Shown piece by piece: positions 7,310 through 13,341 of a stretch of 13,439 bases of DNA. The position numbers and the translations under genes are program-made. Origin of the DNA: Gammaproteobacteria bacterium (GTDB taxonomy: Bacteria > Pseudomonadota > Gammaproteobacteria > Burkholderiales > Thiobacillaceae). The DNA is taken from the NCBI GenBank assembly GCA_018820745.1, contig JAHJNP010000234.1, forward strand, positions 1 through 13,439, in the 5' to 3' direction. The notes under the pieces are model-generated. The model was not told the origin of the DNA. It was given only the letters and a program-made list of their open reading frames with translations, and did not search any database. Each line of letters opens with the position of its first letter. Within the stretch, counting starts at the first letter, position 1.

Positions 7310-7618
7310 TTACATGTAGGTCTTGGCTTCCTCGCCCGGATTGGGCAGTCCGGCGAGCCGCCATGCCTCGCGCGGGCCGGGAAACAGCTGCTGCATGCAG
7401 TCGGCACTCTGTCCGGTGAGGTGGCAGACGTGGCTCAGCGCGGTCACGCTGCCGTGCTTGGCGTACTCGCGCCGCAAAGCAAGCAGCAGGCCGATCTGCA
7501 ATTCGCTGAGTTCACCGAGGCCGTCGTTCCGGGCAATGCGGTTGGCCAGACTCTCGCTCCACATGGCCGGGTCGAGCAGGAAACCGTCGGGATCGAAGAT
7601 GGCGGGGGACATGTTCAT
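7310..7618 (-). CDS. DsrC/TusE-family protein lacking both conserved C-terminal cysteines (RspA-like)
   Basis: The 102-residue product matches the DsrC/TusE fold signature: DPDGFLLDPAMW (9-20) corresponds to the family's D-x-DG-[FY]-L-x-x-x-x-x-W opening, then a helical middle, then QQLFPGPREAWRLAGLPNP (76-94), equivalent to LF--GP--QAC-IAGLP-P in DsrC. DsrC carries sulfur on a penultimate cysteine (CysA) and forms a trisulfide with a second cysteine ten residues earlier (CysB); TusE keeps CysA for tRNA 2-thiolation. Here the CysB position is Trp86, the CysA position falls on Glu97, and the tail is EAKTYM. The only cysteines are Cys65 and Cys74. Sulfur-carrier activity is therefore unlikely, and a regulatory role is one possibility. 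ATG 7618 is chosen for AGGA seven bases upstream; ATG 7645 in frame lacks a spaced ribosome site, and an AT-rich TATATATA lies just before it. It follows mutY by 83 bases. Confidence 0.78.
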   Translation of the reverse strand: MNMSPAIFDPDGFLLDPAMWSESLANRIARNDGLGELSELQIGLLLALRREYAKHGSVTALSHVCHLTGQSADCMQQLFPGPREAWRLAGLPNPGEEAKTYM

Positions 7619-7701
7619 GGCAGTTCCTGTGGCAGACGGGCTCATGAAATATATATAGCACCCCCTCCGGAGACAGCCAGGCATATGCCGCCGCCCCGTG
7701 T

Positions 7702-8736
7702 TCAGGCGCGGCCGAACTGGGCCACCAGTTGGCGTACCGGCGTGGGCAGCGCCGCATTGAGCGCGTCGGCCGGGGTCAGCCAGATCTGGTCGGGCCGCGA
7801 GGCCTGGCGCGGCGCAAGCTGCAGTTGGATGGGTTGGATATGCAGCTTGAAGTGGGTGAAGCTGTGGCTGAATCGCGGCAGCGCCTGCTGCGCGAGCGTG
7901 GTGAAGCCGAAGCGGTCGCGGCAGTGGGCTGCGACATCGGCGTCCGGGGTGAGCTCGGGCAGGCTCCACAAGCCGCCCCATATGCCCCGTGCAGGGCGTT
8001 TCTCGAGCATCAGCTCGCCCCGGTCGAGCAGCAGCAGCATCAGCACCTGCTTTTCGGGGAGGACTTTTTTGGGGCGAGGCGCTGGCAATTCGGCGGTTCG
8101 GTGCTGTTTAAATGCAACGCAATCGGTGCTGACCGGACACACCGGGCAGGCGGGTCGGCTGCGCGTGCAGGCGAGCGCGCCGAGATCCATCATGCCCTGG
8201 GTGTAGGCCTCGATGGCGTTGCGCGGAAGATGCGACTCGGCCAGCTGCCAGAGCGCCGCTTCAACGTTCCTGTCGCCGGGCCAGCCGGCAATTCCGCCGT
8301 GGCGCGCCAGCACGCGTTTGACGTTGCCGTCGAGAATGGCGCCGCGCTGGCCGAACGCCAGCGCGGCGATGGCGGCGGCTGTCGAGCGCCCGACGCCAGG
8401 CAGCTGCGCGATGACGTCGGCCGCGGCCGGAAATATTCCATTATGGCCATTGGCGATGGCGCGCGCGGCGGCAAGCAGGTTGCGCGCGCGGCTGTAGTAG
8501 CCGAGTCCGCTCCACAGTGCGAGCACGTCGTCCTCATGCGCCGCAGCGAGGGCGGGCAGATCGGGGAAGCGCGCGACAAAGCGCTCGAAGTAGGGGATGA
8601 CCGTGGCCACCTGGGTCTGCTGCAGCATGACTTCCGACAGCCAGATGCGGTAAGGATCGCGGGTGGACTGCCAGGGCAGGGCGTGGCGGCCGTGGCGCTG
8701 TTGCCAGCGGATGATGCGGGAGGCGAATGATGTCAC
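7702..8736 (-). CDS. mutY: A/G-specific adenine DNA glycosylase MutY
   Basis: A 344-residue repair enzyme that removes adenine mispaired with 8-oxoguanine. Glu35 in WLSEVMLQQTQV and Asp136 in ILDGNVKRVLARH are the catalytic residues, LPGVGRSTAAAI (112-123) is the helix-hairpin-helix, and Cys190, Cys197, Cys200 and Cys206 form the C-x6-C-x2-C-x5-C [4Fe-4S] site. The C-terminal part (about 220-344) is the NUDIX-like 8-oxoG recognition domain, with KRPARGIWGGLWSLPE and FSHSFTHFKL. Length and the PW motif at residue 21 fit a start at GTG 8736. That codon has no separate ribosome binding site and lies inside a 10-base-pair hairpin (8733-8758), which may limit translation. The DsrC-like gene follows on the same strand. 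Confidence 0.95.
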   Translation of the reverse strand: MTSFASRIIRWQQRHGRHALPWQSTRDPYRIWLSEVMLQQTQVATVIPYFERFVARFPDLPALAAAHEDDVLALWSGLGYYSRARNLLAAARAIANGHNGIFPAAADVIAQLPGVGRSTAAAIAALAFGQRGAILDGNVKRVLARHGGIAGWPGDRNVEAALWQLAESHLPRNAIEAYTQGMMDLGALACTRSRPACPVCPVSTDCVAFKQHRTAELPAPRPKKVLPEKQVLMLLLLDRGELMLEKRPARGIWGGLWSLPELTPDADVAAHCRDRFGFTTLAQQALPRFSHSFTHFKLHIQPIQLQLAPRQASRPDQIWLTPADALNAALPTPVRQLVAQFGRA

Positions 8737-8885: not shown

Positions 8886-11090
8886 TCAGGCGTGGCCGAG
8901 TTTCTGGCGGAACAGGTTCATCAGCTTGCCGAACGCCGATTCGGTGATGGATTTGCGCTCGACCAGCACCGCTTCGCCACGGCGAAGCTTGTCAGCCAGG
9001 CGGAGCTGGCTGATGGAAAAGCTGTTCATGCCGTCCTGATCCGAGAACAAATAAGTGTTCTTGATGCTGCTGGCCCAACCCAGCCGTGCCCAGCGGAAGG
9101 TGCCGTCGTCGTAGTGGAATTCCACCCAGTCGCCCTTGTTCAGGGAGCGGGCACGCAGGGTGAATTCATCCTCCACTTCGGGTGCGGCAGGAGCGGCCTC
9201 GGATGCAGGCGCTGGTGTGGCGGCCTCAGTGGCTGCCGGGGCAGGGGTCAGTTCCTCGATCGATTCGGGCGTGATGTCGGGCAGCGGCACCGGCTGGGCA
9301 TTGGGCCGTACCGCGTTGGCGTGCAGAATGACCAGGGTGGCGAAGAACCGGTCGGACAGCTTTTGCGGCAGATCGATCTCCGCCACGCCTTCGCGCAGCC
9401 GTTTCAGCAATCCGGGCAGAATGCGCACCAGCATCAGCCGTGCGTCCATGTCGGCCTTGGACTGCACGCTCCATACCAGTTCGCGCATGGTTTCGACATG
9501 GCTGTTGAAATGCGCGCCCTGCTCGCCTTCGTTGACGTAATCCAGGGTCAGCAGCTGGGCCCAGTCGCGCCGCAGAAATTCACGCAGGGCTTCCACCACC
9601 GGCTGCTCCTTGAGCGCGCGATTGATGAAGTCGTGCACGACCACCGGCGCGAGCTCTGCGCGTTCGGACTGCTTGATCTGGGCGATGTCCTGCTGCAGGC
9701 TGGCGTCGACGATTTCTTCCAGCGTGTCTTCCAGCTGGCTGCCCATCGCTTCCAGTTCCGCGGCGGCGGAATCGAATACGGTGATGTCCTGCTCGAAGCT
9801 GTCGAGCACCCGGCTGACGACTTGAGAAATGGCTTCCAGCCGCGCATTGCCTGCCTCGTTGTCGGGCAGGTGGACGGCCAGCGTGGCGATCCCATCCAGC
9901 ATGCGGCGGACCGGATGATTCGATTGCGAGAAAAAGTTGCGGTCCAGCATCGCCGCCTTCAGCACGGGAATCTGCAGGCGTGCGATTTGCGCCTTGAGAT
10001 GGTCCGGGATGGCAGCATCATCGAACACCACATCGAATAGCATCGCCACCGCGTCGACCAGTACCGCGTCGAGTGGACTGGCAGCCTGCATGACCGGACT
10101 TTGCTGCAAGCTGCGCAGCACGTTCTGGATGGTGGCGGCTTCCAGCAGGGGCAGTTCGAAGCGGCCGCCACCGGGCAGCATCATGGTGCCGGTTTGCAGC
10201 TGGCCGAGCGAGTCGAGCAGGCTGAACCCGGCCAGCCCTGCCGACGCGCCCCCCATCCCTCCCGCTGCGCTGCCGCTGTGCGCCAGTTGCTCGAACAGAT
10301 TGAACATGTCGCCGCCCGTCTGCCCCTGCATGGCCGGGGCCGGACCGGCTGCCCCGGCGCTGTTTGGGGTTGTGCCTTGCGCCCGGCTTTTCGCGCCGAC
10401 CTTGAGGTCTGGCAGGATGCCACGGTCGATCAGGTAACGGTTGATGGATTGGTAGATGTGCGCGAGTTCGGTGGTCAGCACCAGATCGAACTGGTTCAAC
10501 AGCACGATCCGGATATTCTGTTCAAGCTGCATGCGGGCGATGCCATTCAACAGCGCTTCGCACAGTACACGCGGGCCGAGCGGGCTGTCGTTTTCAGCCA
10601 GGTCTGAGCGGCCCAGCAGATGGGCGATGCGGGCATCCAGGGCGACCAGCTCTTCGGCGCAGTTGTAACGCAGTCGTGAGGTGGCTTTGTCGACCGCCAG
10701 CGTGATTTCGAAATCCTGGTCGTCGACCAGGGACAGCTCGGACAGTTCGGCGCCGGCGGACTTTTCACGGTTGTGGGAAAAATCGTTGAAGGTCTGGCAA
10801 TAGGCATCCTTGCAGGCGCTCAGCAATTCATTGGTTCGTGTGTTGAGGATGCCCTGGGCGCTGTAATAAGAATTGCGCGTGTCCAGCAGCGGCGAACGAT
10901 CGGCCATCGCCAGCAGGGTGTTTTCCATTGCCTCGGACTGGCGGGTCAGCACACGGGTCGCACCTTCGATCAGCAAGTCGCGGCAGCCGTGCAGAATCGA
11001 CAGGGCCTCGGCGGAGACTTGCGCGCGGCGTGAACGCTCAAACTGACTGAGGTTAACTACGACTGAATTTTCTGGCATTTCGCGCTCCAT
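8886..11090 (-). CDS. DUF1631 family protein under sigma-28/c-di-GMP riboswitch control
   Basis: A 734-residue protein of the DUF1631 family, whose biochemical function I do not know. Visible parts are: an N-terminal helical region (about 10-230) with ELSLVDDQDFEI (116-127) and LGPRVLCEAL (171-180); a Gly/Ala/Ser-rich linker (about 235-295); a conserved core (341-399) with VLVDAVAMLFDVVFDD, LKAQIARLQIPVLKAA and NHPVRRMLD; a long charged helical segment (400-590), possibly coiled coil; a Pro/Ala-rich linker (about 600-640); and a C-terminal beta-rich module (652-725) starting KGDWVEFHYDDG. There is no signal peptide or membrane segment, so it is probably cytoplasmic. A PilZ-type RxxxR...[DN]xSxxG pattern is not seen, so direct c-di-GMP binding is not supported. 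Start: ATG 11090 has GAGGTG six bases upstream; ATG 11078 is also possible (GGAG before it), whereas ATG 11147 and the upstream extension lie in the riboswitch leader. Confidence 0.85.
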   Translation of the reverse strand: MEREMPENSVVVNLSQFERSRRAQVSAEALSILHGCRDLLIEGATRVLTRQSEAMENTLLAMADRSPLLDTRNSYYSAQGILNTRTNELLSACKDAYCQTFNDFSHNREKSAGAELSELSLVDDQDFEITLAVDKATSRLRYNCAEELVALDARIAHLLGRSDLAENDSPLGPRVLCEALLNGIARMQLEQNIRIVLLNQFDLVLTTELAHIYQSINRYLIDRGILPDLKVGAKSRAQGTTPNSAGAAGPAPAMQGQTGGDMFNLFEQLAHSGSAAGGMGGASAGLAGFSLLDSLGQLQTGTMMLPGGGRFELPLLEAATIQNVLRSLQQSPVMQAASPLDAVLVDAVAMLFDVVFDDAAIPDHLKAQIARLQIPVLKAAMLDRNFFSQSNHPVRRMLDGIATLAVHLPDNEAGNARLEAISQVVSRVLDSFEQDITVFDSAAAELEAMGSQLEDTLEEIVDASLQQDIAQIKQSERAELAPVVVHDFINRALKEQPVVEALREFLRRDWAQLLTLDYVNEGEQGAHFNSHVETMRELVWSVQSKADMDARLMLVRILPGLLKRLREGVAEIDLPQKLSDRFFATLVILHANAVRPNAQPVPLPDITPESIEELTPAPAATEAATPAPASEAAPAAPEVEDEFTLRARSLNKGDWVEFHYDDGTFRWARLGWASSIKNTYLFSDQDGMNSFSISQLRLADKLRRGEAVLVERKSITESAFGKLMNLFRQKLGHA

Positions 11091-11096
11091 GGGGAT

Positions 11097-11102
11097 CACC
11101 TC
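11097..11102 (-). promoter_or_regulatory. Ribosome binding site that fixes the DUF1631 start
   Basis: GAGGTG on the minus strand ends six bases before ATG 11090, close to the ideal sequence and spacing. It rules out the longer reading frame that runs back through the riboswitch, and it would be the natural target for riboswitch control of translation. Confidence 0.7.
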
Positions 11103-11158
11103 GCGGTTCGGCGGCTGGCTGACCAGGAAACGGGGTGGCTTGCGCATGACCGGAAACG

Positions 11159-11256
11159 GCCGGCGGTCCCGCTGTCTCAGTCCCCTGCTGCGGGGATTGA
11201 GACCGGTAACTTTGCGTCCCCGCCTCGCGGCGGGTTTGCCCTGTTCGGTGGTCGGC
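11159..11256 (-). ncRNA. Cyclic-di-GMP-I (GEMM-I) riboswitch aptamer
   Basis: The minus strand carries the GEMM-I conserved parts in order. ACAGGGCAAACC (11244-11233) leads into stem CCCGCC (11234-11229) / GGCGGG (11224-11219), capped by the GNRA tetraloop GCGA (11228-11225); then GGGACGCAAAG (11220-11210), both blocks matching the Vc2 riboswitch as I remember it. The second stem is GTCTCA (11203-11198) with TGAGAC (11179-11174), an internal loop, then TCCCC (11196-11192) with GGGGA (11185-11181); it is followed by AGCGGG (11173-11168), again as in Vc2. The GNRA loop should dock into the second stem. The closing P1 helix is poor: only GCCG (11256-11253) with CGGC (11162-11159) is found. The AGGG element carries G rather than A at what I take to be the site separating c-di-GMP from cGAMP binders. 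About 70 bases separate it from ATG 11090, with no U-run terminator, so translational control is more likely. Confidence 0.92.
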
Positions 11257-11295
11257 GATAGTGTCAAAAAGTCGACATACAGCCGCACAACTGAT

Positions 11296-11322
11296 CTATC
11301 GGCCAGGATGGGTAAAACTTGA
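11296..11322 (-). promoter_or_regulatory. Sigma-28 (FliA) flagellar-class promoter
   Basis: On the minus strand TCAAGTTT (11322-11315), an 11-base spacer (11314-11304) and GCCGATAG (11303-11296) match the enterobacterial FliA consensus TAAAGTTT-N11-GCCGATAA at 14 of 16 positions with exact spacing. Transcription would start near 11289, about 30 bases before the riboswitch aptamer, giving a 200-base leader. It begins 18 bases after the stop codon of the second DUF1631 gene, so the downstream gene can be expressed independently. Confidence 0.8.
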
Positions 11323-11340
11323 GCGTGCAGATTGAAAATG

Positions 11341-13341
11341 TCAGCCGTGGCTGGCCGTCAAATCTGCTTTGAGATGCAGCATGGCTTTGCGGGTGATTGA
11401 CTGCTCCGGCATCCGCGCGCGGCCAGCCCGCATCACGGCTGCGAATTGCTCGCAGTCGAGGGAAACATGGCGTCCGCCGGTGCTGTCGCATAACAGTAGG
11501 TGGCCATTCACGCCGACCCAAGCCACGCGTGCGGCCGTCAGGCCCTCGTAAGCTGGCTCGAAGTCCACCCAGTCGCCTTCGCGCAATGGCCGTATCTGTT
11601 GCAGGGCGGGATCATCGCCCGCAAGCTGGTGGGCGAACGATTCGATCTGCTCCCGCGAGACGCGGCGCGGCGTAAATGCGCTGACCACCCTTTCGCGTTG
11701 TCCCAGGGCGGGGCGAATCCAGCATTCCTGGGTGGCGGTGATGGCGCTGAAGAAATCTTTCAATTGCGCAGGCTCGGCCCTTTGCGCCAGCAGTCCGTGA
11801 CGCAAAGCGGTGTTGATGGACGGGATCGATTGCAAGCGGGATTCCCGCGTGGCGTCGCTGTCCGGCGCCTGCAAACTGAGAAAAAGCTGTTGCAGGATGC
11901 GGCAGGCCGCGCGCCAGTCGGGTCCCTCGCCGGATTCGGCCACATACAACGAGGCCATGTGCGGCACCCAGGCCGCTTCCAGCCGCCGCAACACCGATTC
12001 CGGGGCTGGGTAGCGTTCGGTCAGGTCGCGCAGGTTTTCCAGCGCTAGCAGAGTGCCCAGCTCCTGGCGTTCGATGTGCTCCAGAAGCGCCACCTCGGAA
12101 GCCAGCCCGGCACTCGAACGTGCCTCTTCGTCGGTCAGCCAGGCGACCAGGCTGCTGTGCGCATGTGCAAAAGCCTCGGCGGGATGCCCAGGGTCGCGGA
12201 GGATGGCGGCGCAGGCGGACTGGACCTGCCCGAGCGCAGGGGCGTGCGAGTGGGCGTGCCCGGGAAAGCGGCGCGAAAACAGGCCCACCAGATCGATCAG
12301 CTGGCGTGCCGGATGCTGGTCGTCGCTGAAAAAATCGGGCGCAGCGAGGGCGGCCCGGAGGGCCGGGATTTGCAGGTGCGCGATTGCAGCCTTGAAATGC
12401 GGCGATAGGCCCGGGTCATCGAGGATGAACCCGAACAGTCCGGCAACGGCATCCAGCACCGCGAGGTCCAATGCGCCCATGCCTGCATGACGAGCACGCT
12501 GCTGCAATTGCTGCAGTGTGCTCGCAGAGGGGGCTGGCGGTGTGTACGGCACGCTCGGCAGGCGGTTTTGCCAATCTTCCAGGTTGTCGACCAGTCGGTG
12601 CGGCATGGGCGGCAACCCGCCCGCCGGTGCGGCCACAGACTGGATATGTGCCAGGATGGCCTGCCCGGCATCGGCTTGCGTGTTCCGGGGCAGGGGGGCT
12701 GCGCGGGCGACAGGAAGCTCAGGAATGTCCTGCGCGCCCAGAAACTGATTGAGCGCCGTGTAGGTGTTTTTCAGCGTGTCGAGCAAGGGGGCGGTGGCAC
12801 ACTGGAGCAGGAGGGTGCCGCACGCCGAGTCGATGTCCAGCGTATCGAGTGCGCGCGACAGCGCGCGCACGACCGGTAGCGGACCATAGGCGTCGGGACG
12901 GGCCGGGTCTTCCGATGCTGCCCGTCGCACCGCCTGCAAGCGGCCGAACAACAGCAACATGTCGGCACGCAGGGCGTCGGTCAGCTGGGCGGCGGCTTTT
13001 TCTTCCGCCAGTTGCCGCTTGAGCGCGTCGTCATCCAGCAGTTGCAGTTCGGCCGGACGGCTGCCATGGCGCCGGGCAAACGTCTCGGGGCGGGCGAGGT
13101 GAAGATGGAACTGATCGGCAAACGCGGTGGACAGGGTGTCCGGGCTGGTATCGAGCCAGTCCAGGCAGGTCTGCCCGGTTGCGATGGCGGCAGGCGACAT
13201 CTGCGCCGTAATGGCGCGCAAAACGCTGCCCTGAAGCGGGGCATGGCAGCGCTGGAAAAAATTGCCCAGCGCCTGCGTCATGCGTGCATCGGCTTCGGAT
13301 AGCAGCGCAGCAGGAGTCAGGGAAGTCGATTGGATATTCAT
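11341..13341 (-). CDS. Second, diverged DUF1631 family protein
   Basis: A 666-residue paralogue of the neighbouring DUF1631 protein. The relation shows most clearly in the core (292-350): LAVLDAVAGLFGFILDD, FKAAIAHLQIPALRAAL and QHPARQLID align with VLVDAVAMLFDVVFDD, LKAQIARLQIPVLKAA and NHPVRRMLD of the neighbour. It also appears in the C-terminal module starting EGDWVDFEP (588-596), with an ITRKAML end matching ITESAFGKLM. The N-terminal third (1-200) is Ala/Leu/Gln-rich and little conserved, and the linkers are shorter. No signal peptide or membrane helix is seen; it is probably cytoplasmic, function unknown. ATG 13341 has only AAGG two bases upstream, a poor ribosome site, so expression may be low or the start wrong (ATG 13281 is the next in frame). 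Neither a sigma-28 promoter nor a GEMM element is seen in the 98 bases upstream. Its stop is 251 bases before the next gene. Confidence 0.8.
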   Translation of the reverse strand: MNIQSTSLTPAALLSEADARMTQALGNFFQRCHAPLQGSVLRAITAQMSPAAIATGQTCLDWLDTSPDTLSTAFADQFHLHLARPETFARRHGSRPAELQLLDDDALKRQLAEEKAAAQLTDALRADMLLLFGRLQAVRRAASEDPARPDAYGPLPVVRALSRALDTLDIDSACGTLLLQCATAPLLDTLKNTYTALNQFLGAQDIPELPVARAAPLPRNTQADAGQAILAHIQSVAAPAGGLPPMPHRLVDNLEDWQNRLPSVPYTPPAPSASTLQQLQQRARHAGMGALDLAVLDAVAGLFGFILDDPGLSPHFKAAIAHLQIPALRAALAAPDFFSDDQHPARQLIDLVGLFSRRFPGHAHSHAPALGQVQSACAAILRDPGHPAEAFAHAHSSLVAWLTDEEARSSAGLASEVALLEHIERQELGTLLALENLRDLTERYPAPESVLRRLEAAWVPHMASLYVAESGEGPDWRAACRILQQLFLSLQAPDSDATRESRLQSIPSINTALRHGLLAQRAEPAQLKDFFSAITATQECWIRPALGQRERVVSAFTPRRVSREQIESFAHQLAGDDPALQQIRPLREGDWVDFEPAYEGLTAARVAWVGVNGHLLLCDSTGGRHVSLDCEQFAAVMRAGRARMPEQSITRKAMLHLKADLTASHG

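Follow-up and report, generated by a model that had tools for sequence, protein, structure and literature searches.

In E. coli, the messenger c-di-GMP acts on or through protein at ycgR and yhjH. Sites at both genes for the flagellar sigma factor FliA are tabulated in PMC4183435. A like combination, a flagellar sigma factor at a c-di-GMP-linked gene, is proposed for the locus described here, where the mRNA leader would also read c-di-GMP. The RNA itself belongs to the c-di-GMP-I (GEMM-I) riboswitch class (RF01051/RF03167, clan CL00126), which it resembles in sequence, three-stem layout, GNRA-capped P2, pocket strands and leader position. It differs from that class in its target, a family without known function (DUF1631), in the FliA-type promoter that would drive the leader and, in Thiobacillus, in a genus-specific anti-aptamer strand. 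DUF1631-GGDEF-EAL fusion proteins have the DUF1631 region in common with the protein encoded here, which is DUF1631 alone; among the matches listed, none of the five complete fusions that were scanned had a riboswitch in the 1 kb upstream. The riboswitch is thus a member of a well-known class, with an uncharacterised target and a new regulatory setting.

The window, a stretch of 13,439 nt analysed as a whole, comes most likely from a Thiobacillus bacterium in which an RNA switch appears to read c-di-GMP between a flagella-type promoter and a DUF1631 gene; the arrangement suggests a role for the DUF1631 family in the decision to swim or to settle. The features of the locus are collected in Table 1.

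Table 1. Elements of the riboswitch leader and the two DUF1631 genes on either side of it.
Feature	Position	Strand	Basis
Gene A (666 aa), DUF1631 paralogue preceding the leader	11341..13341	-	PF07793, 229.1 bits
Sigma28 (FliA)-type promoter: TCAAGTTT, 11 nt, GCCGATAG	11296..11322	-	FliA-site matrix, 22.8
5' flank GCCGACC, anti-aptamer partner	11250..11256	-	7-pair helix counted on 46 leaders
c-di-GMP-I (GEMM-I) aptamer	11158..11250	-	RF03167, 62.8 bits; RF01051, 60.4 bits
Pocket strand GAACAGGG inside aptamer, second anti-aptamer partner	11239..11246	-	duplex register
Anti-aptamer strand CCCCGTTTCCTGGTCAGC	11118..11135	-	duplex with flank and pocket strand, 46 genus leaders
Shine-Dalgarno site GAGGTGA	11096..11102	-	sequence and genus leaders
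Gene B, DUF1631 protein, 734 aa, controlled gene	8886..11090	-	PF07793, 572.6 bits (cut-off 33.7)

On its strand (minus, 11250-11158), the aptamer contains ACAGGGCAAACC, a stem with a GCGA cap, GGGACGCAAAG and a trailing AGCGGG. Both conserved single-stranded blocks and the GNRA-capped P2 are therefore in place, as the original prediction had read from the letters, and the columns of the blocks are largely invariant over 46 genus leaders. Two covariance models matched above their cut-offs, RF03167 (c-di-GMP-I-GGC) at 11249-11158 minus (62.8 bits, cut-off 59, E 4e-13) and RF01051 at 11250-11159 minus (60.4 bits, cut-off 35); after clan filtering, this was the only Rfam match at gathering level within the window. 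The better-scoring model was RF01051 in 18 and GGC in 2 of 20 DUF1631 loci picked for having a riboswitch, and RF01051 in 9 and GGC in 10 of the 19 positives among the 20 closest named DUF1631 loci. Since the winner switches between relatives, the GGC label was taken as uninformative and no separate subclass was read into it.

Gene B, which the original prediction had named as the target, gave a strong DUF1631 match (Table 1). Its start is likely the ATG at 11090, preceded by GAGGTGA and lying 68 nt past the aptamer. A longer mechanical ORF begins at GTG 11288 and would code through the aptamer; this start is unlikely because the indels among genus leaders are not multiples of three. Genes A and B form a tandem DUF1631 pair with the riboswitch leader between them. 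Aptamer and target thus stood as first proposed, and the tandem setting, the sigma28-type promoter and a possible anti-aptamer are added to them here.

The AlphaFold2 model of the gene B protein consists of a helical body and a C-terminal barrel (about 640-712), the latter with weak structural matches to TraI and to Tudor/SH3-like chains; no PilZ chain was among the structural matches listed for it, a result that carries no weight against a PilZ-like fold. A Pfam scan at E 0.001 returned PF07793 alone, with no PilZ domain, and DUF1631 was not treated as a plain PilZ protein. The PDB held no sequence relative of DUF1631 at E 1. PacR (NCBIfam NF058594) matched the gene B protein at 154.6 bits, below its curated cut-off of 1200. 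Within the papers searched under the names DUF1631 and PF07793, there was no mention of PF07793, and DUF1631 was met only in papers unrelated by title.

The pairing of riboswitch and DUF1631 was followed through 56 genomes of the genus (most likely Thiobacillus), 53 with a c-di-GMP-I match and 55 with DUF1631. For linkage, 51 top DUF1631 matches of 342 bits or more were counted, a few of them cut by contig ends, and 46 had a riboswitch upstream, its end 136-164 bp from the PF07793 match in 44 and 371 and 966 bp away in the other two. Among the named DUF1631 loci (the best 80 of 550 confirmed), of which Thiobacillus records were the closest, the element recurred at 52, successive batches of 20 giving 19, 17, 7 and 9; it was found at none of the 11 loci within these 80 titled Gammaproteobacteria, Thiocapsa, Thiocystis, Marichromatium, Chromatium, Thiohalobacter or Thiogranum. 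In the order, 200 genomes were searched with RF01051 and PF07793, and DUF1631 was found in 84. Of 133 c-di-GMP-I matches, 32, in 32 genomes, were followed at a distance of at most 1 kb by one of the 150 DUF1631 matches listed; because these are the listed matches, with at most five candidates scored per genome, the pairing counts are no census. Among the matches listed, 23 of the 31 DUF1631 matches of at least 550 bits had a riboswitch within 1 kb upstream, and a riboswitch no more than 1 kb downstream of DUF1631 occurred just once, in the window itself, after gene A. The identity of the aptamer and its association with DUF1631 are close to certain.

Sixteen E. coli FliA sites picked from a table in PMC4183435 made up the matrix on which the promoter was scored, with spacings of 10-12 nt. 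The site ahead of the aptamer, whose -35 box lies 18 nt past the gene A stop, scored 22.8, the best of 80,466 position/spacing combinations in the window (next independent site, 13.3); the E. coli sites score 15.9-29.3 on their own matrix. All 46 genus leaders had a best sigma28-type site of 13.4-29.3, against a control maximum of 12.1 over 336 DUF1631 coding stretches, and its position was constant, 50-56 nt ahead of GGCAAAC. Outside the genus, 30 order leaders were scored: ten, from three more family groups, had sites of 16.7 or more, and the other 20 stayed below 12.

FliA was over its cut-off in 55 of the 56 genus genomes, including the window's own (G000, C39:6100-6765, 271.5 bits, cut-off 189.6), and flagellin was found in 45; in the one genome with no FliA over the cut-off (G204, 75% complete), riboswitch and DUF1631 were not found either. 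Across the order, DUF1631 occurred with FliA in 69 genomes and alone in 15 of 84, FliA alone in 69 and neither in 47 (Fisher p 6e-4, with genomes counted regardless of kinship). FliA was present in 28 of 32 order genomes with a linked riboswitch-DUF1631 pair, in 67 of 81 with any c-di-GMP-I match, in 12 of 12 with a sigma28-type leader and in 16 of 20 whose DUF1631 leader is without such a site. A FliA-consensus pattern gave eight sites in 7 of the 56 genus genomes, four of them in the DUF1631 leader, and one with the reversed control. Three of the non-leader sites had no obvious flagellar gene nearby, as judged from ORFs, and the fourth, in the window's own genome, lies inside a reading frame. 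The flagellin promoters of the genus read TTAACTTT-11-GACGATTC. Of 30 flagellin genes fetched, 27 had sufficient DNA upstream, and this was the best match in 22 of them; the four scored on the E. coli matrix gave 11.6. Because these promoters are a weaker variant, the use of FliA at the leader is inferred; sigma28 control is likely. The conserved TTAACTTT-11-GACGATTC motif upstream of the flagellin genes (L274-L303) is itself a possible genus-specific FliA site.

In the unconstrained fold of the window leader, CCCCGTTTCCTGGTCAGC, 22 nt past the aptamer, pairs with the 5' flank and the pocket strand. The native spacer of each leader was compared with 200 dinucleotide shuffles of it. In every one of the 46 genus leaders the duplex was more stable than the shuffles on average; z had a mean of -2.33, was below -1.5 in 36 leaders and came to -2.09 in the window. 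Most leaders kept the same register (G213, G220 and G243 differ). Pairing with the pocket alone was weaker (genus mean z -1.26, below 0 in 43/46; window, -0.43). The 7-pair flank helix had 89.4% of its cells paired over the 46 leaders, as against 1.6-40.6% when slid by 1-3 columns, and two-sided changes were seen in three of the seven pairs (in G247, G226, G232 and G219). Four of five covariation measures exceeded nearly all column shuffles; the fifth, how many pairs changed on both sides, was unremarkable (102/500 shuffles), and RNAalifold gave no useful consensus on the leaders. The flank helix and the 3-pair P1 are compatible, and together they give a Shine-Dalgarno openness of 0.47, the same as with the flank helix alone. 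Exclusion of the bound aptamer thus rests on the weaker pocket pairing, which the models predict to be incompatible with it. Relative to the free ensemble, the bound-like fold cost 10.1 kcal/mol for native and 10.3 for shuffled spacers (p 0.59); in this energy model the anti-aptamer is therefore not needed to disfavour the aptamer. The pairing was not seen outside the genus, where 32 order leaders (two of them of the genus) had a mean z of -0.02 and five below -1.5, as in the control; as a general feature of DUF1631 leaders the anti-aptamer is unsupported.

Access to the Shine-Dalgarno site was compared between a bound-like fold, with P1 forced and the pocket kept open, and the anti-aptamer fold, with the flank helix. 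Opening the site took more energy in the bound-like fold for 43 of 46 genus leaders (mean 2.07 kcal/mol), which points to an OFF switch. The opening cost, bound minus free, was 1.45 kcal/mol for native against 0.46 for shuffled spacers (p 2e-6) and exceeded 0.3 in 34 of 46 leaders, as it did in 48% of shuffled ones; for the window leader it is small, 0.75 kcal/mol. Over 32 of the 46 leaders the unpaired fraction of the site showed a weak effect: 0.36 in the free fold, 0.29 once P1 was forced, with a decrease in 25 of the 32. The spacer pairs with the Shine-Dalgarno site no better than its shuffles do (mean z +0.49, 13/46 below 0), and a simple anti-Shine-Dalgarno strand in the spacer was rejected.

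The reading we favour, with modest assurance, is a two-input control of gene B in which a FliA-type promoter is followed by a c-di-GMP-I aptamer acting as an OFF switch on translation. When the flagellar regulon is on, the sigma28-type promoter would start the transcript, and the aptamer would then decide on translation of the gene B message. Without c-di-GMP, 11135-11118 would fold back and pair with both the pocket strand and the 5' flank, the Shine-Dalgarno region would be easier to open and gene B would be ON. With c-di-GMP, P1 and the pocket would form, the anti-aptamer strand would be set free, the ribosome site would become harder to open and gene B would be OFF. Cells that are motile and low in c-di-GMP would thus make the DUF1631 protein, which may act on the motile/sessile switch. 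By the folding models, OFF is the probable direction.

The same aptamer and target could instead work as an ON switch, c-di-GMP opening the leader and DUF1631 serving the sessile state. This is rather unlikely, even though riboswitches of both signs are described for cyclic dinucleotides in PMC9262584 and the other targets in the order would suit it: of ten further ORFs scanned downstream of riboswitches, three encode secreted S8 proteases and two gave no match, and the remaining five encode a PilZ-containing response regulator, an EAL protein, a GspH pilin-like protein, one PKD protein and one DUF4124 protein. The predicted hiding of the Shine-Dalgarno site in the bound-like fold of 43/46 leaders and the sigma28-type promoter in the leader speak against it, as do decay of the aptamer without loss of the gene in three species and loss of the leader in a fourth. 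Five of the 51 genus matches are without the riboswitch, one of which (G231) begins at a contig edge. In G201, G240 and G246 (L185-L187), the promoter and remnants of the flank and pocket strand are kept, below Rfam recognition, and the rest of the aptamer is gone; in G203 the leader is lost. The DUF1631 frames of these four have no stops, as expected if loss of the switch leaves the gene on; the natural losses fit an OFF switch without proving one.

Control of transcription, for example through Rho-dependent termination or RNase access, in place of translation initiation is an unlikely alternative to the translational OFF switch. The lack of enriched spacer pairing with the Shine-Dalgarno site suits it; against it, no intrinsic-terminator-like site was found in 10950-11450, which says nothing on Rho, and the predicted change in Shine-Dalgarno access is larger than with shuffled spacers.

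We take position 20 of the aptamer to be one of the three G's of the pocket CAGGG. All three candidate positions are G, so the A at position 20 that marks the cGAMP-selective GEMM-Ib is absent; G20A goes with cGAMP binding according to PMC6274999. Another cyclic dinucleotide, such as 3',3'-cGAMP, is accordingly a most improbable ligand, although the top Rfam label is the GGC variant, for which ligand data were not found in the portions consulted of papers naming it (PMC12452182 and PMC9943018 among them), since the pocket reads ACAGGGCAAACC without G20A and the GGC label gives way to RF01051 in relatives. The ligand is presumably c-di-GMP.

The original prediction had linked DUF1631 to c-di-GMP physiology, and beyond the conserved riboswitch this link gains independent support from protein architecture: some DUF1631 paralogues are fused to GGDEF-EAL, and some of these fusions have an N-terminal PilZ domain. 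The odds are even that betaproteobacteria have in DUF1631 a so far unrecognised c-di-GMP family linked to the flagellum, one that is made under an AND-NOT gate (c-di-GMP low, FliA on) and whose paralogues join the same module to PilZ, GGDEF and EAL. If so, one leader would read both halves of the motile/sessile decision, by its promoter and by its riboswitch. Riboswitch, flagellar-type promoter and fusions to c-di-GMP enzymes together give DUF1631 a testable place in the motile/sessile switch. The window's own genome also holds DUF1631 paralogue fragments at contig ends (L081, L082 and L078, on C385, C207 and C308), two of them with GGDEF and EAL.

Several further features were recorded. In the window, a weaker sigma28-like site (TCAATAAT-12-GCCGTTAT, 13.3) lies at 13381-13354 minus, just upstream of the gene A ORF start at 13341. 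The ORF at 7310-7981 minus is DsrC-like (PF04358) in its C-terminal half; its true start is probably internal, because its N-terminal half overlaps a HhH-GPD/NUDIX gene at 7702-8736. No tRNA gene was found in the window; in some relatives (L042, L046, L047, L058 and others) one lies a few hundred bases 5' of the riboswitch. A second c-di-GMP-I riboswitch of the window's own genome (L079:1159-1263, contig C423, 64 bits) has no sigma28-type site upstream (best 4.8) and precedes a small Cys-rich ORF, starting at about 1364, and then other small ORFs. Another riboswitch group of the genus comprises L087, L088, L089, L092, L095, L096, L098, L100, L101, L104, L105 and L110. The ORFs behind two of these, L092 and L096, were scanned and encode S8 subtilase proteins, and several members of the group carry a weaker sigma28-like site of the TAAAGTCT-11-GTCGTTAC type 17-21 nt before GGCAAA.
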